Origin: Sthenelais limicola
Lineage: Eukaryota; Annelida; Polychaeta; Phyllodocida; Sigalionidae
Assembly: GCA_942159475.1 (NCBI GenBank)
Contig: OW804094.1
Coordinates: 61,562,966 to 61,626,965, forward strand
Length of the DNA stretch: 64,000 nt
Direction: 5' to 3'
Shown here one piece after another: positions 36,801 through 64,000 of the stretch; the stretch's first letter is position 1, and the number at the start of each line of letters is the position of its first letter. A program made the translations under genes and the position numbers. Below the pieces are notes generated by a model. That model was not told the origin of the DNA. It saw nothing but the letters and a program-made list of their open reading frames with translations, and searched no databases.

Positions 36801-39800
36801 CCCCCGGAGAACCTCCGTCATCATTTTCTGAAACGTGGCCGGGACGTTGCAAAGACCAAACGGCATCACCTTAAACTGGTATAACCCCGTGGAAGTAGTG
36901 AAAGCCGTTTTCTCTTTACTGTCCGGATCCATGGCTATTTGCCAATAGCCACTCTCCAGATCTAGGGTACAAAACCACGCATTGCCACCAAGCGCTTCTA
37001 GACAGTCGTCTATCCGCGGTAGTGGGTACGAGTCTTTTCGTGTCACATTGTTCAGTCTCCTGAAATCAACGCAAACCCTAGTTGAACCATCCGGTTTCGG
37101 AACAAGAACCGTGGGGAAGGCCCACGGGCCGTTTCCCTCCTCGATCTTATCCTCCGCTAGCATCTTACTGACCTGGGAGTCCAGAGCCTCCTGTTTTGCC
37201 AAGGGAACTCGACGAAAAGGTAACTTTATAGGCTTAGTGTCACCCGTGGCGATGGAGTGTAGAACCCTGTTCGTAAACCCCAATTGTTCACCTTGCAATC
37301 TGAACACCCGCTTTTTCGCGTATACCAACTCGCGCACCTCTTTCAAGGTTTCAGTATCCGCTACTTCAGCGCCCTCTATGATAGATTCCAGTTCAGGGAT
37401 GCTAGTAATTGAACAGCTATCGGAGGTCAGCTTTCGCTTACCCCCCGTGCTGGACCCGTTCACGGACTCTGCTCTCGCATCCGCCAGATGCGAATAGTCA
37501 CCCGTGAAGTTTGCCGCTACCTCATAAGCGGATGCCACAGGCGTCCCGCGTGGCATGACTATTGCAAGTCCCGTTGGATTCATAATAGGAAGCTCGTGGC
37601 AGTGAGCAGACGATACATATGTATCGCAACCCTCCACGAGACCGTCTACTTGTAACCCTACATCTGACTCCATGATATAGCCCACGTCGTTCTCGGGTAG
37701 GGACACATCCACAGACGCGACCTTTACCTCGAACGCGGCCAACCGCACATCCTCCCGTAGGAATGCAGTCGATATCGCTCCTTTCCGTCGACAGAATACG
37801 TGATTCTTGCCTCCTTCCAAGAGCATCTTCCCAGGCCCCGTAATGCTAGTATCATAGCGCCACATGAAGTCTTGGCCCAGCACGGCCTCCTCCCCGCCGC
37901 CTAGACCATCGACTACGAGACAGGCGTTCGGATACGAACGCCCTGCGATCTCAAAGTCAAAGACCGCATACCCCATCGTCACTGGAGTACCACCCGCAAG
38001 TGGTTTTACCCGGACCCGCGAAGCGAGCAGGTCGGGCTTGCGAGCTAGCGATTCATAGAATTGTTTAGACACTAGTGAGGTAGTTGCACCTGTGTCGTAT
38101 AAAAATTCTCCTCGCCTAGTACCCACTGTGACAGGTACGTACCATCTATCCACTATCGCTACCACGTCGATAGGAATAGAGAGATCCCGGCTGGCCGCAG
38201 AACTAGTCAAATTCTTAACACAGCGTTCCCCACCCGCGGTAGAGCTAACCGCGAGCAGCGCCGTGCCAGCGTCAGTATAGCGGCCGTCCAAACCCATTCC
38301 ACGATCGCGTGGAATGGCTCGAACGCTACTAACCGACTCCTTAGACCAAGGTTTCGTGTCTGCGGGCCTTGTCGGGTCCTCACCCTCCATCACCCCAGTT
38401 TCCTCCTTGTTCCGTTCTGCCTGCCTACCTGACCTCCCCAGATTGTACGACCCTTCTGGAGGTCTTTTGCCCGAGCGGGCTACGGAAGGGTTCCCCCTCC
38501 CGTCATGAGTTCCGTCGAACTTGCGGGTCTCGTCACCGCTTCCTTGCGAGACCCACGTCAATTTCCCTTAGTTGATTTATCTTCCAGGGAATTGGATTCC
38601 TCACCATTTTCTTTCGCGACGAAAGCGCGAAACTTTTTAAGGTAATGACAATTGGCTTGCAGATGGGTAGTTTTCCCACAAAGCCAACAAGCTGGCTCTG
38701 GACGAGTCGCTTTCGTGTCCTTCTTCCTGTAGTCAGTTTTCGTGACTATCTTCTTGGAAGATTTGGACAAAGTCTTGGTTTTATCCCAAGCCTTTTTCGT
38801 GCTACGGTCCGACTTTTTACTGTCATCCTTTCGCACGTCCTTCCGCATAGCCTGGAAGGCCGCGAAATCGGCTATTAACTCCGATTCCGAATCAGAATCC
38901 GGGACTTCGGTCGCAGTAGACGCCCCCGAAGTCTCGTCCGCTGACGAGTCAGAGTCGGACTGCGCTTCTGCTTCCGCAGCCGCGTAAGAAGCCTTCCGCT
39001 CCTTGTCCTTTCTCTGTCCGTAGAACTTATATCCTCTAGTTTTAAATTTAGAGGACTGTCCCTGCGTGGAGTCCAAGACACGCTGATATGCTTCCGGGCC
39101 ACCTGCTCGCACGAAATCTGTTGCGAGATCTACGCAATCTTGCATAGACTTTGGGCGATTAGTTTGCACCCACATGCCCAGAAATTTGTCTTCTAAGCCC
39201 GTGCAGAAGATTCGGATAGACTCCTTCTTCATATGTTCGAGGTATTGTCCCTCGTACGCACGTTTGCACAAGGTCAGTAGAGCCTCACCATAGTGTTGAA
39301 GTGATTCGCCAGGTTGTTGAACACGGCTGCGGTATTCCTCCTGGCGTTGTTCTTCGGTCTTTGTGTCCAAGATGACACGAAGCCTCGTCACAACGTCACT
39401 TAACGTTAGGGACCTAGAATTTCCCCAAGTAGACTGGTTCACATGTCGTGAAGTCGCCATAATGAGTTCGCGCATCAGCGTTTCCTCCTGCCAACCGCAA
39501 AGTTCGGCATAGTTTATCGCGGATGCGAGATACTCTTCCCAATCCTCCCCATTGCGAAAAGGTTTGAGATTTTTAGGTTTAGGATTTTCTCCCTTGCCCG
39601 TTGATCCGTATAAACGAACTTCCGCAGGGCGGTCTTCGTTATACACAACACTAGCTTCCATTTCGGGCATCATCGAACGCCTACACTTAGTAGTGCTCGT
39701 TGGTCCCGTCGAACGGTAGTCTGGTTCGTGACCAGTTGACAAACCCCGTTTGGGCTGTAAATCGTTGTCCAACAATGGAATCGAAACATTAGTCAACGAG

Positions 39801-42344
39801 TAGTTGAGACCATTGTCCGAAGGAGACGAATCTACGAAGTCGACTCTTCTTCCTGCAGTCTTGAAACCTGCCGGAGTGCTAGGCAAGCCCTGGGCTCGCA
39901 TTTCCGTGCTGTCCGTATTCTGCGAAGGCTGTTGCACTCGCGGATCCGGGCTACCTTGAGGCAGAATCGCAGGATATCTCCGATCTAACATATCGATCAG
40001 ATATTGGGGGCAAACCGCATGTTCGTGTAGACCACGATAAAGCCGCTGCACACGCTTCAACGGAAGTTGTTCGTGCATTACCCACAGTAAGTCGAGTGTT
40101 CCTCGAATTTCACCTTCAGCGATTTCGCCTGGTGGTTCTCCCGTCTTGTCGTAAGAACAAAGAACGGTAGTCAACTGGTCCATCATGACCTTCGCGTCAT
40201 CGCTCTGTCCCAGCGGGACTGCTGTTTTGACGGTTTCCGGCGGCTTAACGTCGGAAAGCTCCGACCCATCCGCCTCGCCTGTCTCGACGCTGAAACCCGC
40301 ACGCTCTACGAGCTTGCGAAGATTGTCCTCGTTGTAACACGAGCGCAACCCTAAAACATTAGCTACTAGTTTCTCAACCAAGCTTTGTGTGTCCGGATTG
40401 ACGATCAATCCGTCGGCACGCATATTGTCTATGTGTGCAACTACTTGCTCTAGTTGAGCAAATGAGTCGTTCGCAAAATTTTGCGCATCGCCCTGACGTC
40501 TCGTTAACATCTGAGCGAGAGCCTCGCATGCTCGCTGCTCGGCTTCAGCCTTGGCCGCGGCCTTGGCTGCTTCCTCGTCGCCAAGAGTCATCGTCTGACT
40601 CTCAGCATCGGGGATCCTTTCGGGAACTTCCCTACTCGGCCCTAGGCTCACGGCACCAATGTAGTGAACCGCAGATTCGTGGGCGTGAGGTTACGAAATT
40701 CCGTAAAGAATCATGAATACGAGGAGATTCGTTTGAACCTGGTTTATTTCCCAAAGGTATACAGTTACAAAGGTATTGTCACTGAAGCAAGGGTGCTTAA
40801 TTTGAACAACAGAAGTATCTCGGTCCGCGGCGCGGCTCGAGTCCGTAGTGTTAAGCGAAGCCTGGATCCCCTTGCGGAGGTAGTAGTATCCTCCGCCTAC
40901 CGTCCGTCGGAGGGTGTCTGCAGTGTCGTCTGCACGGTGGTCGTATGTCCCCCCCTGACGGAACTGGCCGGAACTGGTGGTAGTCGTCTCCGGCGCTGGT
41001 AGAAGTGCCCCCGCTGTCGTAGCCTGGATGGTGTTTGGCGATAGTCGACAGCCTCGCTGTATTCCGGGTGGCGGACCCACTACATATCTTTTATTAATTG
41101 GTTATGGGTATTTTATTATGTTCTCATTTTCATTTAATTTGTTAGTTTTAATTTGTTAGTGGTTAATGTTCGATTATAATTGAAAGGGTTACATATGTGT
41201 ATGCTGTTTTTACAATTTTTTTTTTTTTTTTATTATAGAAACATAGGGGACATGATTCTCCACAGGTGAGCGGAGATATCGAAGAAATCCATTCTCCACT
41301 AGGCGGTTAGAGGATGAGGTTATGGTGATGAGGGTTGATTATGGCTGCCGTGAACCAGAACAAGGCGAAGCCGAGTTCTGGTTCCGGCAGCCATAATCAA
41401 CCCGAAGTACCATAACCGAATGCTCTAATGCCTTTAGTCCCCTTTTGTTGGGCTGTTACTATCATTTCTTCATTACAATTACACTTGAACTCAATATACT
41501 AGGCCCTCCAACAGCTGCGACGACCGCGAATTTCATGCGTGGCCAGCCCCTTCAGCTCAGTCAGGTGGCGGCACCATCGCCACCGCTAGCAAAAACGACT
41601 TCCGCCTTAGACGTCCCTCTATGGCTCTCCATTCGTCCCCGCCAGACCAACAAACGGGGACTAAAGGTGAGCGGAGATATCTAACAAAACGATTCTCCAC
41701 AGGAGAGCGGAGATATCGAACCAACCCATTCTCCACGGATGCGCTTTGCCGCCCCAGTTACGGTATATTCGCCACAGTTGTTTGGGGAAGAGGCAAACTT
41801 CCCATCTAAGAAGATTGCCATTGGCAGCACACTGTTTCTCTTTCCCTCATATTTGAATCAGAAGCCGGCATTGGAGCTTGTTTCGATGTAATACTTCGAA
41901 CATTTCAGATGATCTGGGCACTAAGAAAACCGCCTTACTAAGAAAACCGTTGTGCTTTCCCCCCGCAGACTAACAATATTGGAAGAATGTTTGCTGGACT
42001 TTAAGTCATTTTTAGACACGCCCTCATCCCCTAAACAAGCCATTATTCTTCACCTTGGTGGTGCCATTTATGCCAGTGTTGAAAAAGGGTGGCCGTGTCT
42101 AGATATAAGGAGGTGGTGGAAACCCACACCCCTCCACACTTCCCTAAAACCCTCAAAAACAGGGGTGACAGTTTGGCCCGACAAAATTCTTGATTTTATT
42201 CGATGCATGTATGTTGTCAGGAATGATTACCCCTATCATTTTAAAGATGAGAATGTAAAATGCGGACACACGATCGAAATCGAATGTAAGAAGTGCAGCC
42301 CATATGCGGACGTTGTCCACCCTAAAATGGTGTGTAATGTGTAA
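27869..42344 (+). CDS. PC4-like putative ssDNA-binding/coactivator protein, five exons, split by a Gypsy element
   Basis: Exons 27869-27877, 28184-28282, 41239-41265, 41703-41887 and 41969-42344 have AG/GT borders and phases 0, 0, 0, 2; they add to 696 nt, giving an uninterrupted 231-residue protein. Exon 2 is basic (residues about 5-15). The last exon contains AIYASVEKGWPCLDIRRWW, a gap, then GVTVWPDKILDFI. This matches the beta-strand/D-I-R/W pattern followed by G-I/V-x-L/W of the PC4 (p15) single-strand DNA-binding domain, though my assignment is from pattern only. It ends with several Cys/His. Intron 2 is about 12.9 kb because the antisense Gypsy lies in it; intron 3 looks newly created (see 41266-41702). 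A TATA pair lies upstream and AATAAA at 42413. The frame is intact, unlike the Polinton core genes. Confidence 0.65.
28467..28891 (-). repeat. 3' LTR of Gypsy element
   Basis: 425 bp with TG...CA ends, almost identical to 40660-41084. On the minus strand it is preceded by the purine tract GAGGGGGCAG (about 28892-28901), the expected second-strand primer. The open frame inside each LTR is not taken as a gene. Confidence 0.95.
29339..30883 (-). CDS. Gypsy extra ORF C (long coiled coil, unknown)
   Basis: Frame open from 30883; no ATG before the one in SETEMEVDPH (about residue 69), so translation may depend on -1 frameshifting from ORF B, which it overlaps by about 79 bases. Residues about 80-240 are a charged coiled coil containing three 15-residue repeats of the form (R/W)QAE-x-x-RL-x-QEEA-x-x. 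The rest is low-complexity Pro/Ser/Thr and ends in an acidic segment (SDKSVEISDGEEHELLQE). No enzyme motif, signal peptide or membrane helix. The stop is about 450 bp before the 3' LTR. Confidence 0.7.
   Translation of the reverse strand: MRAEPAIPPGFAPGDRQTAKPLFGGIGRGTPTHAPARAPTRVATTKVPSTAGASALANETPLCGSETEMEVDPHEGSTARKEEEKAAAQRCFEQGRVEAERLRVQRETTLAETRLVKEALERKLREEETLRQAEDLRLQQEEAALWQAEEQRLRQEEAALRQAEQQRLQQEEAVRQQLAETAKREAFEQQRLLDKEQSARDMAFFCEEDEKEEAERQQAKLNREIQELRETESRLRVEALNSRRPAFPLSHGIEPPSIQIVDPAGIPMDTGGTLISVTDLTRQRENQSVCTDTGLTPRMSAATWGPNMLPGSQSAEAEDSAGVTPAASSTPRSYRPPRGDVSSATKRLSFIEEKTLVARPAPPPSGEASPKLKEALPSMDTSTKGPLASVPAAPLPVTAPTGTSVEGVEGNGDAIALPWPRTDEGTTPVDHLAAAGSGSDKSVEISDGEEHELLQESDSDTALIYDDLGQEDNVVVVPDSRFDPFDEALIGNLSLHGISKTEGDAEAKEAGEFV
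30805..31935 (-). CDS. Gypsy extra ORF B (zinc finger and coiled coil, unknown)
   Basis: ATG at 31935, overlapping the stop of ORF A (ATGA). About 376 residues. The N-terminus has a C2H2-type finger, C-x4-C-x12-H-x5-H (CPIGYC ... AHGSKEPH). A Lys/Asp/Ser-rich stretch (KGSDKSDKSDRSDTEKR) and a Pro/Ala-rich linker follow, then a predicted coiled coil (about residues 250-320) with LVERVNLLDTQVNGL and RRENQELHAEVTLLRAQ. This recalls a nucleic-acid-binding, multimerising protein. The end overlaps ORF C in the -1 frame. Not known to me from described Gypsy elements. Confidence 0.7.
   Translation of the reverse strand: MTPVWRCPIGYCPVTGDRRSDIVAHGSKEPHKMARKKAVDKIMPVLERVGVSYLPQWGYKSTLHLASATSEAILRNAKEQNFTSKYPLEKDITKPKRTGKTKRKKKGSDKSDKSDRSDTEKRPEKRPKLVPAPIPDRNAWLDGYKIPSSKEKEFPTLPAPTGLTVLQKSHRPAPAAAEGRAPSATVPDPQPGPSRPTAAARAPPPEVDRAGIARTRKVVADRAAVLRQALQESLEGFCVDIAETYRPLDNVDRLVDSQAEIAQLMEDLNRSLNEQELLVERVNLLDTQVNGLRRENQELHAEVTLLRAQAAQRAMRPASPPPPRVETAPPVQNPILRLEQRKLEVREKFELCAQSRPFLRVSLRVIVRPPNLFSEV
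31932..32531 (-). CDS. Gypsy extra ORF A (199 aa, unknown)
   Basis: Starts at 32531 with ATG (MSDDSGHSAAESFGE). The N-terminal 50 residues are strongly basic with RKRRVRRERDRRLKRE, then Ser/Asp-rich; a more folded-looking part follows (FPDYLEYHKAVSVEEYKRFF) and the C-terminus has two Cys pairs (CPFLLC and CVKC). I do not recognise a family. The stop codon overlaps the ATG of ORF B as ATGA at 31932-31935, an arrangement that allows termination-reinitiation, and ORF B is in the -1 frame. Its position 3' of pol is where retroviral env or accessory genes sit, but there is no signal peptide or membrane segment. Confidence 0.75.
   Translation of the reverse strand: MSDDSGHSAAESFGETAANRKRRVRRERDRRLKREVEGPSSHSDDSEASPSDGLKDPDAAAGKYRRHKALNAAAKKLKWGDGKKPVLSLLPANERERKEAVRDPSEVDRFPDYLEYHKAVSVEEYKRFFETCTNPRKVLRTADLAYSFESDRKLQMAMLLYEESSRCPFLLCRTEALVGKPQISRGFSSPDTCVKCIPP
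32532..34151 (-). other. Gypsy spacer between pol and the extra ORFs
   Basis: About 1.6 kb inside the Gypsy element without a long open frame on the coding strand. It holds the promoter-like region listed separately. I recognise no envelope-like or RNA feature in it. Confidence 0.6.
32795..32977 (-). promoter_or_regulatory. Internal promoter-like region upstream of the extra Gypsy ORFs
   Basis: On the minus strand TATATAAG lies at 32802-32795, about 265 bp before the ATG-proximal start of the first extra ORF (32531). Behind it are three copies of TTCRCGAGYRRTGTCA (plus strand TGACAYYRCTCGYGAA) at 32845-32860, 32899-32914 and 32962-32977. A TATA box with three regularly placed upstream copies looks like a second promoter for a subgenomic mRNA. 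Confidence 0.55.
34152..38561 (-). CDS. pol: Gypsy Pol polyprotein (PR-RT-RH-INT)
   Basis: An uninterrupted frame of 1469 codons. Protease: FLYDTGATTSLVSK (near residue 165). RT: YPLPRIDDCLEALGG, FKVMPFGLCNVPATF and the catalytic YLDDVIIYG (near 600). RNase H: FILDTDASGTAMGAVLSQ. Integrase: H-H-C-C zinc finger (RYHGPASAGHFGH ... CPECNVRK), core Asp in RISMDILSG, Asp in QTDGGPEFDG and Glu in GQAERFNR, followed by a GPY/F-type domain (KWDGPFKITRALGGNSYVVD). The far C-terminus adds a basic tail with the AT-hook-like RRGRPPKHKKG. No ATG lies near its start; it needs frameshifting from gag. All catalytic residues are intact, so this copy may be able to move. Confidence 0.97.
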   Translation of the reverse strand: MTWVSQGSGDETRKFDGTHDGRGNPSVARSGKRPPEGSYNLGRSGRQAERNKEETGVMEGEDPTRPADTKPWSKESVSSVRAIPRDRGMGLDGRYTDAGTALLAVSSTAGGERCVKNLTSSAASRDLSIPIDVVAIVDRWYVPVTVGTRRGEFLYDTGATTSLVSKQFYESLARKPDLLASRVRVKPLAGGTPVTMGYAVFDFEIAGRSYPNACLVVDGLGGGEEAVLGQDFMWRYDTSITGPGKMLLEGGKNHVFCRRKGAISTAFLREDVRLAAFEVKVASVDVSLPENDVGYIMESDVGLQVDGLVEGCDTYVSSAHCHELPIMNPTGLAIVMPRGTPVASAYEVAANFTGDYSHLADARAESVNGSSTGGKRKLTSDSCSITSIPELESIIEGAEVADTETLKEVRELVYAKKRVFRLQGEQLGFTNRVLHSIATGDTKPIKLPFRRVPLAKQEALDSQVSKMLAEDKIEEGNGPWAFPTVLVPKPDGSTRVCVDFRRLNNVTRKDSYPLPRIDDCLEALGGNAWFCTLDLESGYWQIAMDPDSKEKTAFTTSTGLYQFKVMPFGLCNVPATFQKMMTEVLRGLNGKICVVYLDDVIIYGATIHDAITNTGLVFDRLMAYGLKLKPKKCRLFRKEVQYLGRIISKEGIRADPEKTRAVVTWPIPLTVKDIRSFLGFASYYRQFIPSFNDLVRPLQETATAGQKVLRYKLTWNSELDDAFEATKKALLSTSVLAYPRASGQFILDTDASGTAMGAVLSQVQDEQERVIAYASNSLSKSQKNYCTTYRELLAVVYYVRKFKHYLYGTDFIVRTDHSSLTWLMTFKEPENMLARWLLDLQQYGVTNKGVIQDRPGKKHENADGLSRRPYSRCKRTDCDDCGAHKAAIAGFVGEGTGTDDNLVSVNQTIREQQRTDDTITRIMGFLENNREPANLTSESDEFRTIWSHKTDLCLEEGVLTFKWRKPSTGHVFPRIVLPFDQRLPMFRRYHGPASAGHFGHARTKDALRRRFFWPAQSGDVKRWIQLCPECNVRKTRKGVNKSPLQKELTGERFSRISMDILSGFKTSTRGNACVLVIVDYFSKWSEAYCLPNHKAATVAWTVFRNWILRFGAPRAIQTDGGPEFDGELFRELCNLYDTKKQTTLLYRPQANGQAERFNRVLVEQLSCYADYGADDWDTYIPCIAAAYNNTINASTGCTPHSVVFGTEAYTPADLIHGVPRNGLDFPSGSGFIEDLCKNLRKSHEYVRRTLKKTAIAQKRHFDLSATNRSFEVGDWIYRYYPPKAANKYGAKWDGPFKITRALGGNSYVVDTAAGGVKWSGDLMKSVLDPDKRGELRKTTGLEQAPEYRRLVAAGRDVVSLEKGKAVAGQELAKSLEKTLLRKVNLANRRGRPPKHKKGCTKETVSPPKRPTPLPNQQNKGRKPLVPKADKPDKLVQRGSEVPNPTRPPDVATRGIGKRVSRRPVRLGIG
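38558..40591 (-). CDS. gag: Gypsy Gag polyprotein
   Basis: The first ATG in frame is at 40591 (the frame is open further upstream to 40651), giving about 677 residues. Gag builds the particle that packages the RNA. The central part contains a capsid-like region with WEEYLASAINYAEL and RLRVILDTK, and the C-terminus has one CCHC zinc knuckle, CWLCGKTTHLQANC (C-x2-C-x4-H-x4-C). An acidic/serine-rich segment and a lysine-rich one lie between them. Gag ends in TGA at 38558, overlapping the pol frame by four bases (TTGA) in the -1 frame, so pol is probably reached by -1 frameshifting. No internal stop is present. Confidence 0.93.
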   Translation of the reverse strand: MTLGDEEAAKAAAKAEAEQRACEALAQMLTRRQGDAQNFANDSFAQLEQVVAHIDNMRADGLIVNPDTQSLVEKLVANVLGLRSCYNEDNLRKLVERAGFSVETGEADGSELSDVKPPETVKTAVPLGQSDDAKVMMDQLTTVLCSYDKTGEPPGEIAEGEIRGTLDLLWVMHEQLPLKRVQRLYRGLHEHAVCPQYLIDMLDRRYPAILPQGSPDPRVQQPSQNTDSTEMRAQGLPSTPAGFKTAGRRVDFVDSSPSDNGLNYSLTNVSIPLLDNDLQPKRGLSTGHEPDYRSTGPTSTTKCRRSMMPEMEASVVYNEDRPAEVRLYGSTGKGENPKPKNLKPFRNGEDWEEYLASAINYAELCGWQEETLMRELIMATSRHVNQSTWGNSRSLTLSDVVTRLRVILDTKTEEQRQEEYRSRVQQPGESLQHYGEALLTLCKRAYEGQYLEHMKKESIRIFCTGLEDKFLGMWVQTNRPKSMQDCVDLATDFVRAGGPEAYQRVLDSTQGQSSKFKTRGYKFYGQRKDKERKASYAAAEAEAQSDSDSSADETSGASTATEVPDSDSESELIADFAAFQAMRKDVRKDDSKKSDRSTKKAWDKTKTLSKSSKKIVTKTDYRKKDTKATRPEPACWLCGKTTHLQANCHYLKKFRAFVAKENGEESNSLEDKSTKGN
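40645..40658 (-). promoter_or_regulatory. Primer-binding site
   Basis: One base inside the 5' LTR the minus strand reads TGGTGCCGTGAGCC. TGG complements the CCA end of a tRNA, as expected for an LTR element primer site. I do not assign the tRNA. Confidence 0.75.
40660..41084 (-). repeat. 5' LTR of Gypsy element
   Basis: 425 bp, matching the other LTR except for three positions that I could see near its start in plus-strand order. It should contain the main promoter of the element on the minus strand; no clear TATA box was picked out. Confidence 0.95.
41266..41702 (+). other. Intron-like insertion flanked by duplicated exon sequence, with long hairpin
   Basis: The exon text TCTCCACAG|GTGAGCGGAGATATC at the left is repeated at the right as TCTCCACAG|GAGAGCGGAGATATC, so the duplication itself supplies the 5' and 3' splice sites. 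Between them lie a hairpin (41318-41417; arms GGGTTGATTATGGCTGCCG and CGGCAGCCATAATCAACCC extended outward by further pairing) and a second inverted repeat (CCTTTAGTCCCC near 41431; GGGGACTAAAGG near 41657). A third partial copy of GGTGAGCGGAGATATC starts near 41666. Splicing at these sites keeps the PC4-like frame open. Confidence 0.6.
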
Positions 42345-50397: not shown

Positions 50398-53300
50398 ATG
50401 GAAGCTGAGGCCACCGTCGCAGAAGCTCTTAATGGCATCGCTCGAGCCAATTTGGGAGGTGTTGTCGACAACGCCGAATGGCGTAACCTCATCGAAGAGT
50501 ATTTTGTGTTCAACGAGGAAACAGAGACGGTGGAATCTGACTCAGATGGAGAACCAGACGTCCCTGATCAGCCTGAAACTCCGGAGACGAACGAAGAAGA
50601 AGTTGAGGAAGCATCAGAACCTATTCTTATTATTGATCACATGCAGGCAGTCGTGGACAAGGAACGGGAAAAGTGCTCCACGTTTCGGTAAGTGTTGGTG
50701 CTCTGCAGCCATCTTTTCTATCGTGTGTGTTGACATGCTGGGGGACGCGATCTGAAAACTATGCTATGTACATCCCTGGAAATCATTCCAAATCTATAAT
50801 CCAATGCTGTTATATGTGCTAGATACCTTGTGGGTATATTTAGAGGTTCTAAAATTTAATTGGTGTATGTTTTAAGTCGCATGGTGTTGTTCGTGCGTGG
50901 GGAGTTTAAGGCCCTCGAGATCTGGGGAGTAGCTATTTACTTGGGACGTCTGAGATTCCTTACTCGTCTCGTGTGGAATGTAGGGTTAAAAATACATTGT
51001 TTGTTTGTGTCATTATGGGCAAATTAAAATCTAGGATTTTGTCCATTTCAGATGTAACTGCCGATTGTTTAACGGCGGGCCATGCATAGACCAGTTCACT
51101 GTGGAACAGCGCATCTCTCATCGGTCGGAACATGACCAAATCCATCGAGGTAATTTCAAAATAATGTTTTTCTCTATTGCCTCATTGCCCATACATGCCT
51201 GTATAATACTCATTCAGTATTTTAATCAGTATTTTAAGCTGTAGCTTGTTAAATAATGAGGACACGTCCTACCCAATTACATAGGATAACTAATTACGTA
51301 GGATAACTGTAGGGGCTCAGACTAAGATTGGTGTCGGTGATATTAGTCAGTCACAAATTCATTTTTACATTATTGTTATACTGTCGTTTCAGATGAGCTC
51401 GACATGGCACTCTTTGGCGTTTTCAATACTGTTACTGACAACAGTGATCGATGCAGTCCAACCAAGAAGGGGCGCCAGTGGAAGGGAGAGAGAAAACACC
51501 CAAAGAGCCACTACAGGATGCATAACAAGCCTATTTGCAAAGCTACCTTTAAATTCCTTTACAAGTGAGTGTTATCATGAATCTTGTGGTGCCCATTAAT
51601 ACTGAACATTAGATAGCTATTCATAATAACATGATTATTTGCTAAGAATCAATATTTTGGTATTGTCATTTTAAGATCCTGCATTATGTTCAATTTCTTC
51701 CTTTGTCAACGATTAAATTATTATTAATTATTTTTTCTATTTCTTTTCTCTCCCTTCACTTCTAGGATTAGCCAAAACTTGCTGACAGTTTTGCTAAAAT
51801 CCTTCGCTGAGGATGGTCTGGTCACTCGTTCACGACAGGGTGGTGGTCACCGTGCTGTGAGGTCTTTGCCAATAGATGACCTGAAGAACACTATCAACTT
51901 CATCACATCTTATGCCGAAACACATGCTCTTGTCTTGCCAGGCAGAGTATCTTCTCACCACAGAGACGACATCTTAATTCTCCCCTGCCGTTCTACAAAA
52001 GCTGAAGTTCATCGTCTTTACACACAAGCCATGCAAGAGACTGGCAATAGGGCTGTTGCCTACTCCACTTTTGGTCATTTATGGCGCAAGTATCTTCCTA
52101 AAATAGTCACAAGTCGTCCCATGACAGACCTCTGCTGGGAGTGCCAGCGTAATAACAGAGACATTTCCTGTAGTAGTAATTTACCTGATGTTGTGAAAGC
52201 TGCCAAGTTAAAGAAACAGCAGAAACATTTAGACAGTGTAACCGCCGAAAGAACTCTTTATCAGAAATTTTGTGCTGATGCAAAAGAAGCGTACAGAGAC
52301 AATGGTGAACCCCCCCTTGGCAAACATGCCCCTTGCTCATGTGACATTCGAGTACATCTCAGTTTTGACTTTGCACAACAAGTGCATTTACCTTCTTACC
52401 CGATGCAACCAGGTCCCCTTTATTTTCTCACCCCGAGGAAGGTAGGCCTGTTCGGTATTTGCATGGAAGGAATGCCTAGACAAGTTAACTACCTTATAGA
52501 TGAGAGCCATTGCACCAGTAAGGGGTCAAATGCAGTTATTTCTTATCTGAATCATTACTTTGAAAACTATGGTCTGGGGGAGAAAGATTTAGATCTTAAC
52601 TGTGACAATTGTAGTGGCCAGAACAAGAACCGGTATGTTTTGGCCTATTTGATGTGGCGTGTCCTTACTGGAAGGCACAGGTCTATTACACTTAACTTTT
52701 TGATTACTGGGCACACTAAGTTTGCCCCCGACTGGTGCTTTGGTCTCTTGAAAAAACAATTTCGTCGGGACAACGTTTCTTCTCTTCAGCAATTAAAAGC
52801 CAGTGTGCAGCGCAGTACGCCAGGGGGGGTCAACCAGGCCCAACTTGTAGGTGATGAAAGGGGTACTGTTTTTGTTCCATTGTACGACTGGCAGGCATTC
52901 CTGTCACCTTTCTCCAAATCTTTTCCAGGTATCAAAGGGTATCATCATTTTGAATTTTCTAGTGACAAACCTGGTGTTATTTCTTTCAGGCCATTTGTAG
53001 GCCCTGAAGATAGTGGTACTTTTAAAATGCTTACTGTTGATGTGGGTGATGTCCCTCAGGACAACCCACCCATTGTACCTTCTCCTGGACTGTCTGCATA
53101 CAGACAGTGGTATCTTTTTAATTCTATTCGTGATTTTTGTACCGAAGAAACCAAAGACATTATGTGCCCCAAACCAACTGTACCTGAAGAAGGGCCAGGG
53201 AGGGGGGGGGATGGCTACATTGTACAGGCTCCTGCAGTCGCCCCAGTAAGAGGTAGAGGGAGGGGAAGTGGAAGGGCTAGAGGAAGAGGGAGGGGTAGAG

Positions 53301-53620
53301 GAAGGGGAAGGGGAAGGGGAAGGGAGAGGGAATCTTCTTCTGATGAATCATTAGAATTAGGTGGTGATGAATCTTCTGAGGAGGAGGAGGAGGAGGAACC
53401 TCAAGAGGAACCTCAAGCTAGGGGTAGGGGTAGGGGTAGGGGTAGGGGTAGGGGTAGAGGAACAGTAAGGGGAAGGGGCAGGGTAAGGGAATCTTCAGAA
53501 TCTTCTTCGGATGGGGAGGTTGCACCTCCTCCAGCAAAGAGAGGTAGGGGGAGGGGGAGGGGAAATGTTGAGCAACGCCGGCCAGGGAGGGGTAGGGGTA
53601 GGGGTAGGGGTAGGGGCTGA
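50398..53620 (+). CDS. Putative DDE-type transposase-like protein with RG-rich tail (DUF7869-like)
   Basis: Exons 50398-50687, 51052-51149, 51393-51564 and 51766-53620 have AG/GT borders and join in phase to 2415 nt, an uninterrupted 804-residue protein. The N-terminus is acidic. Next comes a Cys-rich part (CNCRLFNGGPC) and a probable helical DNA-binding region. The core has LSFDFAQQVHLP, LNCDNCSGQNKN and GHTKFAPDWCFGLLKKQFRR, spaced like the Asp-Asp-Asp/Glu residues of an RNase H-fold integrase/transposase. It resembles the uncharacterised DUF7869 family found in marine invertebrates (from memory). The C-terminus has arrays of Arg-Gly interrupted by acidic Ser patches, a likely nucleic-acid-binding tail. 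AATAAA lies at 53788. Being the only gene between the inverted repeats, it is the likely transposase. Confidence 0.8.
53400..53620 (+). repeat. GGGGTA/GGGGAA hexamer arrays coding Arg-Gly repeats
   Basis: Runs of AGGGGT hexamers (for example 53420-53458 and 53590-53617) encode Arg-Gly dipeptides. They are telomere-like in composition but in frame with the protein, so they are treated as coding microsatellites. Confidence 0.8.
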
Positions 53621-55417: not shown

Positions 55418-56592
55418 TATTGTTTTCTATATTTCACAATATTACGAACTTGTGACTTTAAAGTCCATGTGTTTTCAGAATCTGGGTACCCAATCCACTT
55501 TATAAGAACTTCTGCTTGCCCTCTCTTGTTTTTACGCTCCTTAACTATTTTTTCCACTTCATAGTATGTATCTTCATCCACATGAGCAATTTGTTATTCC
55601 TCCTCATAAAACCGCCCACTAATAGGTTCGTTTTGCCACGACTTGATAGCATATGTTGGAACGTGTTGTTTTACTTCCCTATCTATTATTATAAACAGCT
55701 CCCTTGTATACTTTTCGTCATATGCTCTATCAAAGGTTGATGCCACATATGTGAGTCTGACCTTGTCGTTAATCTCAAACGTATACACTGCTTTTGACCA
55801 TAAGTAGGGTTTTTCATTTTCTATAAATTGTTTTTTCCATAGTATATCCTTTGGGGTTTTTCTAGCTGTTGCTGGAGACATCCCTATGCTAGCGTGAGGG
55901 GAGTTGTTGATGGCTTCTATGATTGACTGTAAATTATCAACCCACCTGAATGTATTTTTGAATTTCATAAACCTTTGTAACCTCATTCTTAATGTTTTAA
56001 TCGCCCTTTCCGCAAAATTAGCTTTTTTATCATTTTTTGTTGTAAAATGGTGAATTTTATAATTCTCATACACCTGTTGTCCTACAGAATTAACAAATTC
56101 GGTACCCATATCTGTCCTTAACACCTTAGGGTGGATTGATTCAAAAATCTCCTCCATCCCCCGCCCACATTCAACCCCAGTGAGGTTTTTTAAAGGTTTT
56201 ACCCATAAATAGTGACTAAAAATATCCACAAATAATAGGATAAACCCAAATCCATCATTTTTATCCTTAAATATACTCAGGTTTAAAGTATCACCATCCC
56301 ACTGGTAATCAATATCAGAAACAACCACTCGAGGTCTTTTGAAGTTTTTAATGATTGGTGAAAAAAAAGTGTATGAATCCTGCGTTAATAACCATTCCCG
56401 AACCTGTTTTTTGGTTATACGGTGTGTTCCCTCATTTTGAATTTGTTTATACAACGCATTTAACCCCCCATATGATGCACTAGTGTTAGCTCCATAAAAA
56501 AGCTTGTGCATATATTTTACTTCCTTTTCTGCAATTTCTTTTTGGGCTTTTCCATTAACCGGTTTTTTGATTTGTTGGTTAGTCTTACCCAT
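55417..56592 (-). pseudogene. Polinton integrase with chromodomain, split by one stop
   Basis: ATG at 56592. The N-terminal region (SYGGLNALYKQIQNEG, ITKKQVREWLLTQDSYTFF) matches Maverick integrases. The DDE core has DIDYQWDGDTLNL, LRTDMGTEFVNS and ANFAERAIKTLR, so all three catalytic acids are present. After the SH3-like segment a TAA at 55594-55596 stops the frame. The same frame then encodes a chromodomain (YEVEKIVKERKNK, VLIKWIGYPDSENTW) ending at 55417. Integrases of this kind insert the element into chromosomes; the chromodomain would steer it to methylated histones. Only the stop before the chromodomain is damaged, so the catalytic part could still be made. Confidence 0.9.
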
Positions 56593-56732
56593 TCTTACTT
56601 GAGTGGTTCCCAAATGGAGTGCAGTTTATTTTTTCTTTTAGTTTTTTTTATCACTATCCTCATACGCTTTTGCGTTATCTCTAATTTGCTCGTATTTCTC
56701 AAATGAAAGTAAAACCATTTTTCGCGCTTGCT

Positions 56733-57163: not shown

Positions 57164-57812
57164 TTAGTTATATACAACAATCTCATCTCCAAATATGTTT
57201 GTCTTTAACCTCAAATCAGGTTTTACAATATTCTGATGTGGACTTAGGTCCACAAGAAGGTACCCGTATGATTGTGATAACACACAATCTTTGTATGCAT
57301 CAATAAGAATATTCCCAATACCTGTTTGACGGCTTAAAAGAGCAACCTGGTTTACATCCCTTGTGTTTTTTGTTCAAATAAAATAGTGGGTGTTAACACT
57401 TATCGACCTGGATTTTTTGCCCCTGCTCATACAAGTTTTGAAGAAGGTATATGATTGTTGCATTATTGTGGTGGGAAGTTCTAGTAAATAGATTCCCAGC
57501 CTTTTCATCACTCATTAACTCAGACATTAAATCATCTATCACAATAATAACATGCTCTCCCTGACTAGAAAATTTTTTAATATCCATCTCAGATGGTAAA
57601 CCTTCATGAAATAGTATATCCGGTTGTTCCTCCTCCTCAAATTTTTTTTGCCATGCTCCATAACAATACATGACTTTCGAAGTATTCAATGAGAATAGAT
57701 TGTTTTTATTCTTTAAAATTTCAAACAAAAGAGTCGTCTTTCCTGACCCCGAAACCCCTGCTATGGCAATGGACGTGGGAGCTATAAATATCGGACCAAC
57801 CTCAACTTCCAT
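57164..57812 (-). pseudogene. Polinton genome-packaging ATPase (FtsK/HerA type), broken
   Basis: Walker A AGVSGSGKTTLLFEIL near residue 25, Walker B EHVIIVIDDLMSEL near 90, and the following N-A-T-I-I-Y-L-L-Q-N-L motif identify the Polinton/A32-like packaging ATPase, which pumps DNA into capsids. At a run of six A (57413-57418) the frame shifts. The next frame contains a stop at 57374-57376, and then the conserved C-terminal region (RDVNQVALLSRQTGIGN) continues to TAA at 57164. Thus there are at least two lesions. It lies between the polymerase and the small conserved protein. Confidence 0.85.
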
Positions 57813-57890
57813 ACCGATGTAATTTCCCTTCCCTCAAACACGTGGTGTCTATTCAAGAGATAAGTGAAAAGTGAAAGACTTGCAAGTCTA

Positions 57891-60240
57891 TCATAACCCC
57901 TCAGTCATCTTTTTTATGATTTTTTCCCACAGTAACCCACATGTATTCAAACCCGGGTGCATATTTCTTTTAACAACCCTGGATAACCCAAATGATAACC
58001 CACTAGTCCAATGTTTATCCCCATCATCACCCGGGTGGATTATTATTTTATCTTTTAAAGCTAAAGAAACAGGGGATATTTGACACTTTAAATACATTAT
58101 TTTTTCCATTACTCTCTCCCGCTCATTTATCCACCGCACATTTATCCCATATAGTTGGGATTTTAGGGAAATTTCTTTCCCACTTTGGGATATTTCAATG
58201 TCTTTTGCAATTTCAAACTGTTCGTGAAAAACAGCCTGAACTGAAAAAGGTGGTTAATTGAAATAAACGTTTTTCCTCCCCATTGAAGTGTTTGAAAGTT
58301 GTGTATTGAAAGAATATCCAAATCCCCATAAATAATATGGGTGTTTGATGGGTATGGGGATAGCACAATGTCTAGTGGCGTTGTTGAAACCCCATCATCT
58401 TGAACAACCCGTTTACAGTAAAAATAGGATAACCCCACTTTTTTCTGAGTGTAGTTACACATTGTGTCAATGTGGTGTCTGATTCCTCTATTTTCGACCA
58501 TACCACTTCTATGAGATTGTAAGCATTCTAAAAATCGTTTGTATGGGTCATACACCCTCGATTTATTGACCCCTTTACAACTCATTTTAACTGTATTGCC
58601 ATCATGCAGCACGTATAATTTAGAACACAAGGAAATCATCTCATCCCCTTCTGCTTCTAGTTTAAATAACCCACCAGTCCTCTTATCAAATTTTGTGTGA
58701 GTGGCACAGCATTTTCGTGGAAACCATGCATTTACGCCCGCCTCATAACCATTGTAGCAGTGGGCTACTTTTGGGAGTTAAAGTCTCCCACTTTTTCGGG
58801 TTTTATACTCTCAGTTAGAGATGGTTTTGAAAACGAGATGTATAACGAATCAGTATCCATCTGACATAGTTGAAAGTTGGATCTATCGATATATTCATCG
58901 AGAAAATCATAATAAAATGATAGCATTCTCATCTTTGATGTTTGTAAAAGTGTGAATGCTAAATGTATTGGTAAATCCAGATTTATCTCTTTTTTGGCCA
59001 TCTGGATTTCATACAAGTGATCAGATATCTCATTTATGTTTGTGAATAGGGGGTCATTAACCATCCTTTTCGATGTATACTCATCACCAGCATAAACAAT
59101 ATTTTGGTGTTTCGTGCGATCCATTATCAAACTCCCAAATGCTGAGTTCCCGAGCAACTTGGTTGTGTCTGCTTTAACTGTGGATTGAGGATTATTATCC
59201 CCCTCCCTCCTACTCATATTAACCTCTTCCTCGAATGATTTAAAACAGCGAAGTGGCGTAAATTCAACAACTTGGTAAACCCATGTAACTTCCAAACCAT
59301 GCTGCAAATACCACTTTAATAAATCAGAGGATAGTAATATTCGTGAGGCAGCCATCCCACCCACCAACAACTTTCTAGCACCCCCCACTTTAAACCCCAC
59401 GTCCTGACAGTACTCCTGCATGTGGGCCCCAATATTAGCGAAGGGTATCTCTGTTGTGCAAAATATTGGAGAAAATTCTGAAAAGTATTCATGAGGTGGT
59501 ATTTTCTTCTCCTTTCCTAAAGGCCATGATTTTGGAACAGAAATATCAACTTCAATTAAACAATACAGGTCCCCACTCTCCATTGCCGAAAGAATTTTTT
59601 GTTCGGATACCGCAAACTTATTTTTTTTGTAAAACAGGGGTTGAAGTTTATCAATGACTGCTTTTAATTCCCCATTTTCTTGTCTAACTTTGTTAAATTC
59701 ACACTCATATATTTCCTCATAATTATAACCCATTTGAAGAATAAATAATTCTTCAACCCTCTCCCGCCTCTCAAGAAGCTTGGGGTCGTTCGTTGGGGGC
59801 ATGCATGAGTGATAATGCCACCAACACCCCTGAAATTCAAAAACAGGTTGGGATTGTGCATAAAATCCATCAACTTTCAAAAGCCCAATCTTACACTCTC
59901 CGCCACTATTTAATTTATGAATTATGTCAATATTTCTTTCTTTAGCAACCCAATCCATCCAGTAATACATGGATAAGTGTTTCCATGATTGGGAAGGGGC
60001 AAAACCATTTTCAGAAGTTCTCCTGATATAGTTAAAACAAGGTAATTCCCTTCCTAGCGAGTATAAGTAAAGGCTGTTTGCATCAAACTCCTGTATTTTA
60101 GAGCACAGTTTCAAAGGGTTGCCTCTTATACATGTTTCGGTTTTTTTCTGATGTCTACTAAACACAATGGATGGACCTCCCACCAAATTTTGGTTTATCG
60201 TGTGGTATAAGTCCGCATCCCTTTTAACAAAATTTGTAAG
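57891..60240 (-). pseudogene. Polinton protein-primed DNA polymerase B with C-terminal NADAR domain, broken
   Basis: The frame enters at about 60240 (GGPSIVFSRH) and shows polymerase motif A (QEFDANSLYLYSL), the insert with FEFQGCWWHYH, motif B (KLLGNSAFGSL) and motif C (MDTDSLYIS). It frameshifts near 58765 and continues with the thumb region (CSKLYVLHDG, KMSCKGVNKSR). The last part changes to a NADAR domain: WGGKTFISINHLFQF, a frameshift near 58170, then ERERVMEKIMYLKCQ, DDGDKHWTSGLSFG and PGLNTCGLLWEK. NADAR enzymes cleave N-glycosidic bonds in riboflavin intermediates or ADP-ribosylated guanosine. The polymerase N-terminus (exonuclease, terminal-protein-like part) is missing beyond the retroelement junction. 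Confidence 0.8.
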
Positions 60241-60454
60241 ATGAACCCCTGCGATGACGCAGTTCGTTAGAGAGCGCAGATAAATACCAACTGTACACTA
60301 GGATACAGGACCTATAATAACTAATGGAACATACAAGTAATTCCATAACCATCCTAAGACCACAGAAATAAGAGATATTTTATATCTAGTGATCGACAAG
60401 ACTGTAAAAGTGACACTAAAATATTCCTAACATACGCGCCACCACACAAACAAG

Positions 60455-62269
60455 ATGGCGGCATTGCTAATGTCAACAAATGACCAGCAACAACAATGGA
60501 CTAACACGGCGAGCAAACCCACCGATCTAAAACGTTCAAGATCAGAATCCTCCCTCAGCCTACACAATCAACAGCAACAACACATACCCTTGGATATAAA
60601 ATCAATCATCCAAGAAGTGAAACAGCAAGTACTAATTGAAATAGGCCTATACTATGGAGAGGAAATGCACGCAGTCCCGGTAAAAAACAATCGGACATGT
60701 ACCCAAAGATCTAACCCCTTCCCACGACCTAAATCCCAAAGGAATACAAATGAGGGAAATGGAGACGAAAATGAAAGTAAGCTATCTCCAGACAATCCAG
60801 TTTATCAGTCAGAAAATAAGGGAAACATTGAAAAGATCACAAATGACCTAGCCACGAACGACAGATTGACCTCTGACCTCGCAGCTAGACTGGAGTACAC
60901 ACAGACACAGGTGGACAACATGGTCCGATTACAATCAAAGAGGGAGTGTGATAACCAAAGTGAATTAGCCAGTTTCAGGAAACACATGACAACATATGCC
61001 CAGGAGGAAAACACCACCGAAAAGCTAGCAAGCAGAATATCCTCCCTAGAGAAAAGAAAAGATGCAAATCCTGAAAATCTCAGCACAGGGCAATACCCAT
61101 ACCTCACTCACTTAAATCAATCGATCGCAAAAGGAAGAAGGTTAAATGGAAAATCACAAAGAACAGGACAAAAGACTGTCTCAAAAGTTACAACTTCAAA
61201 CTCAACCCCGAACCCAGGCCCCAATGCCACAAATACAAGCAGAAGTAATACGGATATAAGGGGCACCTACCTATTTATTGAGGGAATACAGGAACCATGG
61301 TTAAACTCCAATGGAAAATTACCAGCAGGCATCTCAAAGCAGGAGCACATCAAGGAGAGTCACTGCATTGAAGATCCCAAGGTGAAAATCCTGAAAATAT
61401 TCAAACTGGCGTATCCCTCCATAGATGAGAATGATATAAAATCCGTCTATAGAATAGGTAAAGCCCGTATAAACACCACACGTACAATCTTCGTAGAGCT
61501 CCAGAAAACGGATAACAAGGTAGCCATAATCCGTGGCTGGAGGGCAGTTAGAGCAAAAGACGACTTCCAAACAGTCTGGCTCAACAAATACCCACTAATG
61601 GGTGGCCGTAAAAGCAAGTTCATGCTTAAAAACTGCCATACACTCGCCGCACATATAAATCCAGAGGCAAAGTTGGTAGTGAACCATATTGTCATAGGCG
61701 AGGAGTCTTTCGGCATGACAGACTTAGCGCAACTCCCACCCGGAAGTACGCCAACAGAGGCGCAGCAAATAAAGGTGGGAGAGAAGGGCCTGGGATTCCA
61801 GGGGGAGGCCCATTTTTGTTCAAAATTTTTCCCGGCAGCATTCACATTCAAAGGGCGTGAATATAAGTCAGTAGAACATGGCTTTCAATTTCTTAAAGCC
61901 GAAGCGGCAGGCATGCCAAAACTCGCTGCAAAAATCAAGGCGGCGAGCTCGCCGAGTGCCGTAAAATGGCTAGGCAAATCTGTCAATACAAAGAAGATCG
62001 AAAAATGGAAAGAGCAGGAGGAATCCCTACTAGAAGACCTGGTTAGACACAAATTTAACCAGAATGACGAAATAAGGGGAAAACTCCTGGACATCATGGC
62101 AGATACCCTGTATGAAATTACGCCATCGAAGAAATGGGGAGCCGGTTTGTGGCTGCCTCCCACTTCCTTCAAAAACTACGAACGCAACTCGCTGAAAGAG
62201 GTGGATTGTATAGGAGAAAACAGATTCGGTGTGATCTTAACCAGCCTGAAGAAGCAGCTGAAAAGATAG
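60455..62269 (+). CDS. LINE ORF1-type protein fused to a NADAR domain
   Basis: ATG at 60455, 604 residues, no stop. Residues 1-100 are Gln/Ser-rich; about 130-205 form a coiled coil (ASRISSLEKRK). About 270-400 look like the RRM-like and C-terminal nucleic-acid-binding part of LINE ORF1 proteins (GTYLFIEGIQEPW, SVYRIGKARINTTRTIFVEL). From about 430 to 580 there is a NADAR domain: FKGREYKSVEHGFQFLK, WLGKSVNTKKIEKWKEQE, LLEDLVRHKFNQN and PSKKWGAGLWLPP. The conserved S-x-E-H-x-x-Q and W-G-x-G-L signatures are intact. NADAR proteins hydrolyse ribosyl-base N-glycosidic bonds. The next ORF overlaps its end. I know of no described ORF1-NADAR fusion. Confidence 0.8.
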   Translation: MAALLMSTNDQQQQWTNTASKPTDLKRSRSESSLSLHNQQQQHIPLDIKSIIQEVKQQVLIEIGLYYGEEMHAVPVKNNRTCTQRSNPFPRPKSQRNTNEGNGDENESKLSPDNPVYQSENKGNIEKITNDLATNDRLTSDLAARLEYTQTQVDNMVRLQSKRECDNQSELASFRKHMTTYAQEENTTEKLASRISSLEKRKDANPENLSTGQYPYLTHLNQSIAKGRRLNGKSQRTGQKTVSKVTTSNSTPNPGPNATNTSRSNTDIRGTYLFIEGIQEPWLNSNGKLPAGISKQEHIKESHCIEDPKVKILKIFKLAYPSIDENDIKSVYRIGKARINTTRTIFVELQKTDNKVAIIRGWRAVRAKDDFQTVWLNKYPLMGGRKSKFMLKNCHTLAAHINPEAKLVVNHIVIGEESFGMTDLAQLPPGSTPTEAQQIKVGEKGLGFQGEAHFCSKFFPAAFTFKGREYKSVEHGFQFLKAEAAGMPKLAAKIKAASSPSAVKWLGKSVNTKKIEKWKEQEESLLEDLVRHKFNQNDEIRGKLLDIMADTLYEITPSKKWGAGLWLPPTSFKNYERNSLKEVDCIGENRFGVILTSLKKQLKR

Positions 62270-62346
62270 GACTATCCCTACCACCACCTAGCACTACACA
62301 TTTACCCCGTTCTCACATCCTATCATCTACAAAACTAAATCCAAAT

Positions 62347-63066
62347 ATGGCACATCGGCTCGACGCGCTCATACTGGCTGACTCGAGGGGAGCAAACACT
62401 CAACAGCTGATACGGGACAACTACCCGGGGCTGAGAATCAAAGTGGTCGTGATCAGAGGAGGCCAAATCGCCAACCTCGCATTAGTGGCTGTGCCTATAG
62501 TGCGACTACGACGACCTAGAGTTATATTTTTCACTGCAGGAATCTGCAACGTGACAAGGCGTGACAGGACGGACCTTGGTAAGCAAATAACACTCAGATA
62601 TAGCTCAATAGCCACCTTCGAAGAAAGTATCACAGCAATCTTAAGAACAGCAGCCAACTCCCTTAGAAGTGCAGTCATTGTACAACACGAACGACCCAAA
62701 GTCGGTTTCGCAACCATCCCTGGAATAAACATCAATGCTTATAATGAACATCTTGCAGCAGGATGGGGCGACCAGGTTAAGTACAAAAGCACCCCCTATA
62801 CCACCCAAGGAATGCTTAATGACCTTATCATCTCCTACAACAACGTCGCAGGTTTCCTGAATGCGGTGGAAGACCTGCCAACCCCCAGGATAGGTTAACT
62901 AATCCACAGTAGAAAGTCAGCCAGGAAATCAAAAAGTACAGGAAAAACAAAGATGATGCACTCGTACTCTAAGCTCTCACCCGACGGGTGCCATTATACG
63001 CAGGAGCTACTGGTAGCAGCAATGACCAAGCTACTCGAGTGCATCAACAGGGCGCTATCAAACTAA
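62347..63066 (+). pseudogene. SGNH/GDSL-hydrolase-like ORF with one in-frame stop
   Basis: The frame is open from 62134, but the first natural start is ATG 62347 (MAHRLDALILADSRG). The D-S-R after the first hydrophobic strand takes the place of the GDS nucleophile block, and VIFFTAGICNVTRR resembles the block III strand (with Asn). TAA at 62896-62898 interrupts the frame. The same frame continues for 55 codons and includes LSPDGCHYTQELL, the D-x-x-H catalytic block V, then TAA at 63064. Esterase ORFs of this fold are known from CR1 LINEs. The stop separates the Ser from the Asp/His, so either this copy is dead or readthrough is needed. Confidence 0.65.
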
Positions 63067-64000
63067 GTGTAATCAACTTGCAACACACCTAACGTGAGGG
63101 CCTGACGGACGGTGTTCGTAAGAATGCACCCGACGGCCCACACCAAAGGTGACAGGTAACTTTACACTTATTTCATGTTCGTGACCTCTAACACCAAATA
63201 CCAACTAACACAAAGATTACAGAGCAAGTCCTTACCAGGATTTACCAACACCAAAGGAAATGCTCATCTATAGGTTCTAACAGGGCATGAGTGTTAGTTA
63301 TAATGCAAACCCCAGTTTCAACCTAATCAAATCTATAAACTGCCTGTGCCATAGCAAAGTAAAGTAAATAAGGAATCGATGGAAAAAGTGCATACCGGTA
63401 ACAGGGGCCCGTGTTTTTCAAAATGCGACCCCAACCACCCACCCACATAAATATCCGAATGTGCAATAATGTGTTAATAAGTGAAATTAAGTGAATCTGT
63501 GAACCACCTGAAAGTAAAAACACCAGAAAGTAAAATCACCTGAAAGTAAAAGTAAATCCATATAATCAAAATCCAGCAATCAATATACTGGAGATTACAT
63601 AAACAACCAGTACCTCTTAAATGCAAGTGAAGTGCGAGAAAAAATAAGGCAAAGAAACGAAGGAGAAGAAAGTGAATATAAAGGGAAAAAAGAAGAAGAA
63701 TAAAAGAAAGAAAGAAGAAATGAGACGGTGATAATAGTAATAATTCAGTTGTCAATAAATAAGTCGAACGAAGTAAACAAGTGACAGAGACATAGGTATA
63801 AATCGATCTTACCATACATAAGTAAGCACAGACTCGAACGCTCTGAATACAAGTTTGATTGTTTAAAATGTAAGCTGTAAATATAATGCTATATTGACAC
63901 TGTATTTGCATAATATTGTATCTATATTTGAACCTGAAAATCGTATCCGAATTTTGAATTTTGGACAAACAGTGATAATACCCATACTGGATGCATACTA
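63067..64000. other. No gene recognised to window end
   Basis: Non-coding-looking sequence. It has repeated GAAAGTAAAA words near 63505-63550, a purine-rich stretch (63630-63720), and no reverse-transcriptase motif. Short frames on the minus strand here are low-complexity and not supported. Confidence 0.5.

Follow-up and report, generated by a model that had tools for sequence, protein, structure and literature searches.

NADAR domains end the ORF1 protein of a LINE and the putative DNA polymerase B of a Polinton in the genome of the annelid Sthenelais limicola

Two kinds of mobile element in the annelid Sthenelais limicola encode replication proteins that end in a NADAR domain, and both fusions are widespread in this genome and under purifying selection. 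The first is carried by open reading frame 1 (ORF1) of a long interspersed nuclear element (LINE), and the second by the DNA polymerase B (PolB) of a putative Polinton. Both occur in a stretch of 64,000 nucleotides, referred to here as the window (assembly GCA_942159475.1, contig OW804094.1, positions 61,562,966 to 61,626,965 of the forward strand), in which an initial annotation had read NADAR domains at the ends of two neighboring proteins. This observation is confirmed. The interpretation attached to it is partly supported, in that both protein families end in NADAR and the LINE domain keeps the residues for removing ADP-ribose from guanine; the anti-defense role is hypothetical. We favor, with a probability of about 0.5, a reading in which the LINE NADAR would act on the RNA or cDNA of the element as a guanine hydrolase and the PolB NADAR would be an altered relative, each being a fixed part of a replication protein. 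All counts come from one genome, searched over 1.13 Gb in 161 contigs.

The LINE protein and its parts lie on the plus strand of the window:

60431 to 62269, plus strand: ORF1, 612 amino acids stop to stop, with C-terminal NADAR (ORF and Pfam)
61262 to 61765, plus strand: conserved middle region of ORF1, residues 278 to 445 (alignment A1)
61808 to 62263, plus strand: NADAR domain of ORF1, residues 460 to 611, with E482, K489, and E562 (Pfam, PDB, and alignment A1)

As the initial annotation had proposed, ORF1 ends in a NADAR domain, and the domain is full: PF08719 matched at E = 7.1e-20, over positions 10 to 163 of a profile of 163. The same protein matched phrog_1017 (2.4e-24), PDB chain 8bau_A, described as "NADAR domain-containing protein" (E = 1.2e-9), and TIGR02464 (8.4e-20), the last slightly under its cut-off (71.6 versus 73.7 bits). 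The middle region had no match in Pfam or PDB; we take it to resemble the RRM/C-terminal domain of L1-type ORF1 proteins. An AlphaFold prediction of window positions 61262 to 62266 from the single sequence had a mean pLDDT of 35 and was not used.

ORF1 belongs to a large family. Scoring of 72 among 5152 candidates gave at least 76 matches in the genome, at best-hit identities of 32 to 100%, and 14 of these matches contain internal stops. All 16 proteins in alignment A1 carry PF08719, and two further, strongly divergent ORF1-like proteins also have a C-terminal NADAR (L086, E = 3.8e-33; L087, E = 9.4e-29). Genome-wide, a first look with PF08719 gave 5561 candidates. Scoring covered the 150 best of them, every one of which exceeded the cut-off, and a few of these places were examined individually. 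The domain was also seen as a solo protein of 162 amino acids (L085, 49 to 534, at G000:C1:94855254-94855679; E = 3.2e-31), a frame present at three places among these best 150 matches.

The polymerase lies on the opposite strand, in pieces:

58768 to 60250, minus strand: palm part of the broken polymerase, with motifs DANSLYL, KLLGNSAFG, and MDTDSLY (alignment A5 with L168)
58331 to 58777, minus strand: polymerase tail preceding NADAR (PHROG DNA polymerase, E = 0.0034; alignment A3)
58237 to 58330, minus strand: N-terminal part of the PolB NADAR, containing SINHLFQF (alignment with relatives)
57894 to 58238, minus strand: C-terminal part of the PolB NADAR, in a different frame (phrog_1017, E = 0.0075; alignment with relatives)

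The window copy is broken into three minus-strand frames (58765 to 60297, 58163 to 58777, and 57891 to 58253), and the Pfam NADAR profile matched none of them at E<=10. The last piece matched phrog_1017, the PHROG found in ORF1, at no better than E = 0.0075. With three custom hidden Markov models (HMMs), the two C-terminal pieces were not distinct from 1000 shuffles each; the better piece ranked narrowly first with one HMM and third and seventh with the others. Judged alone, the NADAR of the window polymerase is doubtful. Its relatives are clearer. The PolB tail gave 530 candidates in the genome, of which 150 matches were scored; 7 contained internal stops, and 58 lay in open frames of >1700 codons (manual count). 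For the C termini we took 15 of the 150 places, all without a stop within the match; the frames exceed 1700 codons in 11 of them and measure 661 to 670 in the other 4. All 15 matched an HMM built from nine phage NADARs only (E of 1.4e-21 to 8.1e-8 in a search of these 15 sequences), and a mixed phage and LINE HMM spanned the domain in 13; the frame ends within NADAR in L073 and derails within it in L081. Pfam, run on nine of the 15, found PF08719 in all nine, eight of them over the cut-off (L070 scored 34.0 versus 35.1). The window copy is weak by itself, but relatives in the same genome carry the domain; the PolB-NADAR fusion is therefore settled, and the initial claim that the polymerase ends in NADAR holds for the family and not for the window copy alone.

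We take the polymerase to be a Polinton PolB from the three palm motifs listed above. The assignment rests further on weak PHROG matches in the tail, found in three of nine relatives (DNA polymerase, E of 3.6e-4 to 3.6e-3), and on an adjoining integrase and P-loop ATPase, both with matches under cut-offs. The palm had no Pfam match, and a PDB search with one PolB palm returned none.

Both domains are constrained, as judged from pairwise dN/dS (nonsynonymous to synonymous rate) values that are rough because many dS are near saturation. For the LINE, dS was usable in 11 of 24 pairs (pairwise counts); in these the NADAR gave 0.03 to 0.19, and it was lower than the N-terminal third of ORF1 in all nine of them that were computable for both. 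Seven of the remaining pairs were saturated and six had dS<=0.04; among low-dS pairs, L010-L012 gave 0.28, L017-L019 gave 0.59, and L010-L011 was undefined. For PolB, the NADAR gave 0.11 to 0.44 in 8 of 11 pairs, the other three being saturated in NADAR, and the polymerase tail gave 0.03 to 0.17 in 7 of 11.

In trees, the PolB NADARs form one clade and the main LINE NADARs another (FastTree support 1.00 and 1.00; IQ-TREE 100/99 and 100/98), and the two clades are not joined in the best trees. The rows comprised 15 main LINE sequences (LINE1) of 40 distinct full-length copies, 13 of the 15 PolB sequences, 9 of 122 phage records, and 28 (FastTree) or 14 (IQ-TREE) of 80 viral loci; alignment A3 holds 14 of the 15 PolB rows. 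A tree forcing PolB and LINE1 together was not rejected by the approximately unbiased (AU) test (p-AU 0.246), with a program warning of long branches, and forcing all LINE rows together gave a p-AU of 0.215. The tree proposed in the initial annotation as a way to look for one source gives each group its own clade and leaves joint grouping acceptable. We rejected a single common source as demonstrated, given the separate clades and the value for the joint constraint, and equally rejected separate sources as proven, given that the joint constraint was not rejected. Separate capture of NADAR by the LINE and by PolB is likely.

An oomycete NADAR holds ADP-ribose through E43, K50, and E125 (PMC11543638). 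ORF1 residues E482, K489, and E562 align to E45, K52, and E127 of 8bau_A, a constant offset of +2 from the oomycete numbering, and 8bau is probably that same oomycete protein. At the position of E125, BC4488-type NADARs have Asp and phage NADARs have His, and in the Escherichia coli C7 enzyme K95 and D171, the equivalents of K50 and E125, are required for efficient hydrolysis; its E88A variant shows a minor effect in vitro, yet fails in cells (PMC11543638). Among 40 distinct LINE copies, the first Glu is present in 39, the Lys in 38 (Arg in L057 and L058), and the third Glu in all 40. The ORF1 NADAR, as aligned, retains residues required by guanine-ADP-ribose hydrolases, with the same Glu-Lys-Glu set as YbiA (PMC11543638, PMC11125620, PMC11833690). 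A YbiA-type active site that hydrolyzes ADP-ribosyl groups on guanine is most likely for this domain.

In the mechanism that we propose, NADAR would be a fixed C-terminal part of the RNA-binding-type ORF1 of the LINE and of the Polinton PolB. ORF1 on the ribonucleoprotein (RNP) of the element would bring the domain to LINE RNA or cDNA, where it would strip ADP-ribose from guanine and so leave reverse transcription unblocked. Of the hydrolase families tested, only NADARs have been described as reversing the ADP-ribosylation of guanosine in RNA, the T4 phage NADAR and YbiA being active; they are inactive on phosphate ends (PMC11833690) and on the uracil adducts that PARP10 makes (PMC13036486). 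It is on this ground that the LINE domain may be expected to clear guanine adducts. The PolB NADAR would have kept the fold and lost or changed the active-site set while evolving faster. At the replication fork it would probably still bind ADP-ribose or single strands that carry it, perhaps as a reader; its Glu-Lys-His subgroup may still hydrolyze, like phage gp30.3. We infer the substrates, the biological role, and host defense as the target.

Several observations count against this reading. In the comparison of 13 PolB rows (the 15 without L073 and L081) with 15 LINE1 rows, the first PolB position is Glu in 7, Asn in 4, and Asp in 2, and the Lys position is Lys in 10 and Arg, Phe, and Cys in one each. 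The third position, at which Glu marks the YbiA subfamily, is Glu in none of the 13; it is His in 7, Tyr in 3, and Leu, Val, or Phe in one each. L070 and L071, relatives in the subclade of the window polymerase, read Asn-Lys-His. The missing third Glu and the Asn in this subclade make a hydrolase role for the PolB NADAR doubtful. The initial suggestion that both elements use NADAR against guanine ADP-ribosylation finds support in the residues kept by the LINE domain and is in doubt for the polymerase. Glu-Lys-His, as in gp30.3-type NADARs (PMC11543638, PMC11125620, PMC11833690), occurs in L076, L078, and L079, other rows differing and the His being equated by alignment only. The dN of the PolB NADAR is 2 to 8 times that of the polymerase tail, and one LINE copy, L054, has Lys for the first Glu. 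YbiA and phage NADARs hydrolyze guanosine-ADP-ribose in vitro but failed to protect cells against DarT1 (PMC11125620); the natural substrate may therefore differ. A search of this genome for the writer enzyme DarT (PF14487) gave 0 candidates, the pierisin-type family not being searched for. ORF1 and its NADAR had no relative outside this genome in protein databases at E<=0.001, and a comparison of the PolB pieces and alignment A3 with viral contigs confirmed no relatives.

Alternatively, NADAR might serve the RNA metabolism of the element itself, without any attack by the host, by processing the ends of RNA molecules, NAD-derived caps, or by-products in the form of ADP-ribose. Processing of RNA intermediates has been proposed for the NADARs of Ectocarpus Gypsy elements and oyster LINEs (PMC12477816), and the nematode NADAR protein SNA-3 is required for trans-splicing (PMC9303266). 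Such a role fits poorly with a NADAR on a DNA polymerase, and we consider it unlikely. To the same degree unlikely is a binding or folding module for which catalysis is needed in neither element, whether as a reader of nucleic acid or ADP-ribose or as a protein contact. The scaffold residues W, G, N, and G are each kept in 13 of 13 PolB rows while the active-site residues vary, and the domain is still constrained; against this, the LINE active-site trio is almost invariant though ORF1 diverges to about 32 to 40% identity. Degradation of soluble ADP-ribose derivatives such as immune signals, rather than nucleic-acid adducts, has been proposed for phage NADARs (PMC9503650). The same survey favors macromolecular targets for the NADARs of eukaryotic RNA viruses, and ORF1 and PolB, being presumably nucleic-acid-bound by function, would favor a target in cis; we regard this explanation as improbable. 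Chance junction or assembly artifact, to which the lack of a significant NADAR match in the window PolB copy might have pointed, is refuted by the many diverged genome copies of both fusions, with open frames and constraint, and the initial view that the fusions are genuine stands.

The proximity of the two NADAR proteins has a different explanation. The LINE and the remaining Polinton features are as follows:

60251 to 64000, plus strand: LINE (apurinic/apyrimidinic endonuclease-reverse transcriptase [APE-RT] element without long terminal repeats [non-LTR]), extending beyond the window end to about 67837 in window-equivalent numbering (shared 5' end)
62347 to 62898, plus strand: second small LINE ORF after ORF1 (alignment A2; in the window copy, a stop precedes the DGCHYT block)
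57393 to 57833, minus strand: P-loop ATPase fragment of the Polinton (weak P-loop matches under cut-offs, including Pox_A32, E = 8.9e-4)
55594 to 56625, minus strand: integrase of the Polinton (rve, E = 7.4e-6, under the cut-off at 26.6 versus 32.6 bits)

The 5' end of the LINE is sharp at 60251, with the sequence GCGATGACGCAG, and is common to copies on other contigs with differing flanks. The first 16 codons of the stop-to-stop frame of the window PolB are LINE sequence, and homology to an open relative begins only after them; the LINE therefore interrupts the polymerase gene, in a head-to-head orientation. By eye, the sequence right of the LINE had no polymerase reading, and the missing N-terminal part of PolB was not found there. 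Because the 5' end of the LINE falls within the PolB gene, the adjacency of ORF1 and PolB is an insertion accident. We rejected a functional link drawn from it, and the "side by side" pairing of the initial annotation falls as an association. A second place with NADAR beside NADAR was seen in L014 and L015 (3731 to 4174 in each), where an extra NADAR frame lies head to head with a LINE ORF1 copy (PF08719, E = 2.7e-9 in L014).

The 3' end of the LINE, about 67837, is an estimate from homology to L042 up to about 9303 (register L042+58534). Beyond the window end, ORF2 of the same element (L042:5638-8598) matches RVT_1 (5.5e-36) and Exo_endo_phos (2e-13), and the endonuclease and reverse transcriptase that define an APE-RT LINE were found in both L042 and L051. 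The reverse transcriptase of this family reads GVPQGTVLGPLLF, which we take, judging by this motif, to be typical of the Jockey/CR1/L2 side and not of L1/Tx1. The second small ORF is presumably SGNH-hydrolase-like by its motifs; the blocks ADSRG, RGG, AG-CN, and DGCHYT occur in all seven copies of alignment A2 (L011, L017, L020, L024, L028, L030, and L039), and it had no match in Pfam or PDB. Elsewhere in the window, an ORF at 51728 to 53620 carries DUF7869 (E = 1.1e-20) and a long Arg-Gly-rich tail, and positions 28001 to 42000 have a G+C content of 0.50 to 0.60, versus 0.33 to 0.46 in the rest.

NADAR in ORF1 has already been reported for several Tx1 LINEs of the oyster Crassostrea gigas (PMC12477816), so the ORF1-NADAR fusion is not new as a kind. 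Unlike the oyster elements, the LINE described here has a separate SGNH-like ORF after ORF1 (the seven copies of alignment A2 and the window copy), and two more divergent ORF1 types, L086 and L087, also end in NADAR. The Ectocarpus Gypsy elements are likewise retroelements with a captured YbiA-type NADAR, but they are LTR elements of a brown alga, and their Pol has the domain in its N-terminal part (PMC12477816). Some PolB NADARs have His where gp30.3 has His; in contrast to the DarT1-linked, YbiA, and gp30.3 NADARs, those found here are fused to transposon proteins, with no partner transferase seen. In the polyproteins of animal RNA viruses, too, NADAR lies beside the polymerase of a genetic parasite (PMC9503650), whereas here an integrating DNA element would carry it on a DNA polymerase B; that viral survey has no mention of Polinton, Maverick, adintovir-, or transposon. 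The polymerase resembles those of Polintons (Mavericks) in its motifs and in the putative integrase and P-loop ATPase beside it, which are present in order with matches under cut-offs; the C-terminal NADAR sets it apart. A literature search pairing NADAR with Polinton found no paper with both, most subscription papers lying outside that search and the Maverick and adintovirus pairings not being searched alone; among the papers listed by a broader search, NADAR occurred in none.

What NADARs do outside DarT operons, above all in eukaryotes, has been called unclear (PMC11125620). We put forward, tentatively, that mobile elements with two unrelated modes of replication acquired NADAR, possibly on separate occasions, as counter-defense in cis, such that LINE RNPs and Polinton forks may carry a guanine de-ADP-ribosylase or reader. 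The Polinton fusion might then be a new polymerase architecture, with a fast-evolving domain shifting from enzyme to reader. The many NADAR-transposon fusions in one genome make it a natural place to ask whether eukaryotes ADP-ribosylate guanine of parasite nucleic acid. If our proposal is correct, it would imply that the host has an immune pathway by which guanine in the RNA and DNA of parasites is ADP-ribosylated, and a polymerase that brings along an eraser or reader of base adducts would give a DNA element a new, built-in way of handling damage.

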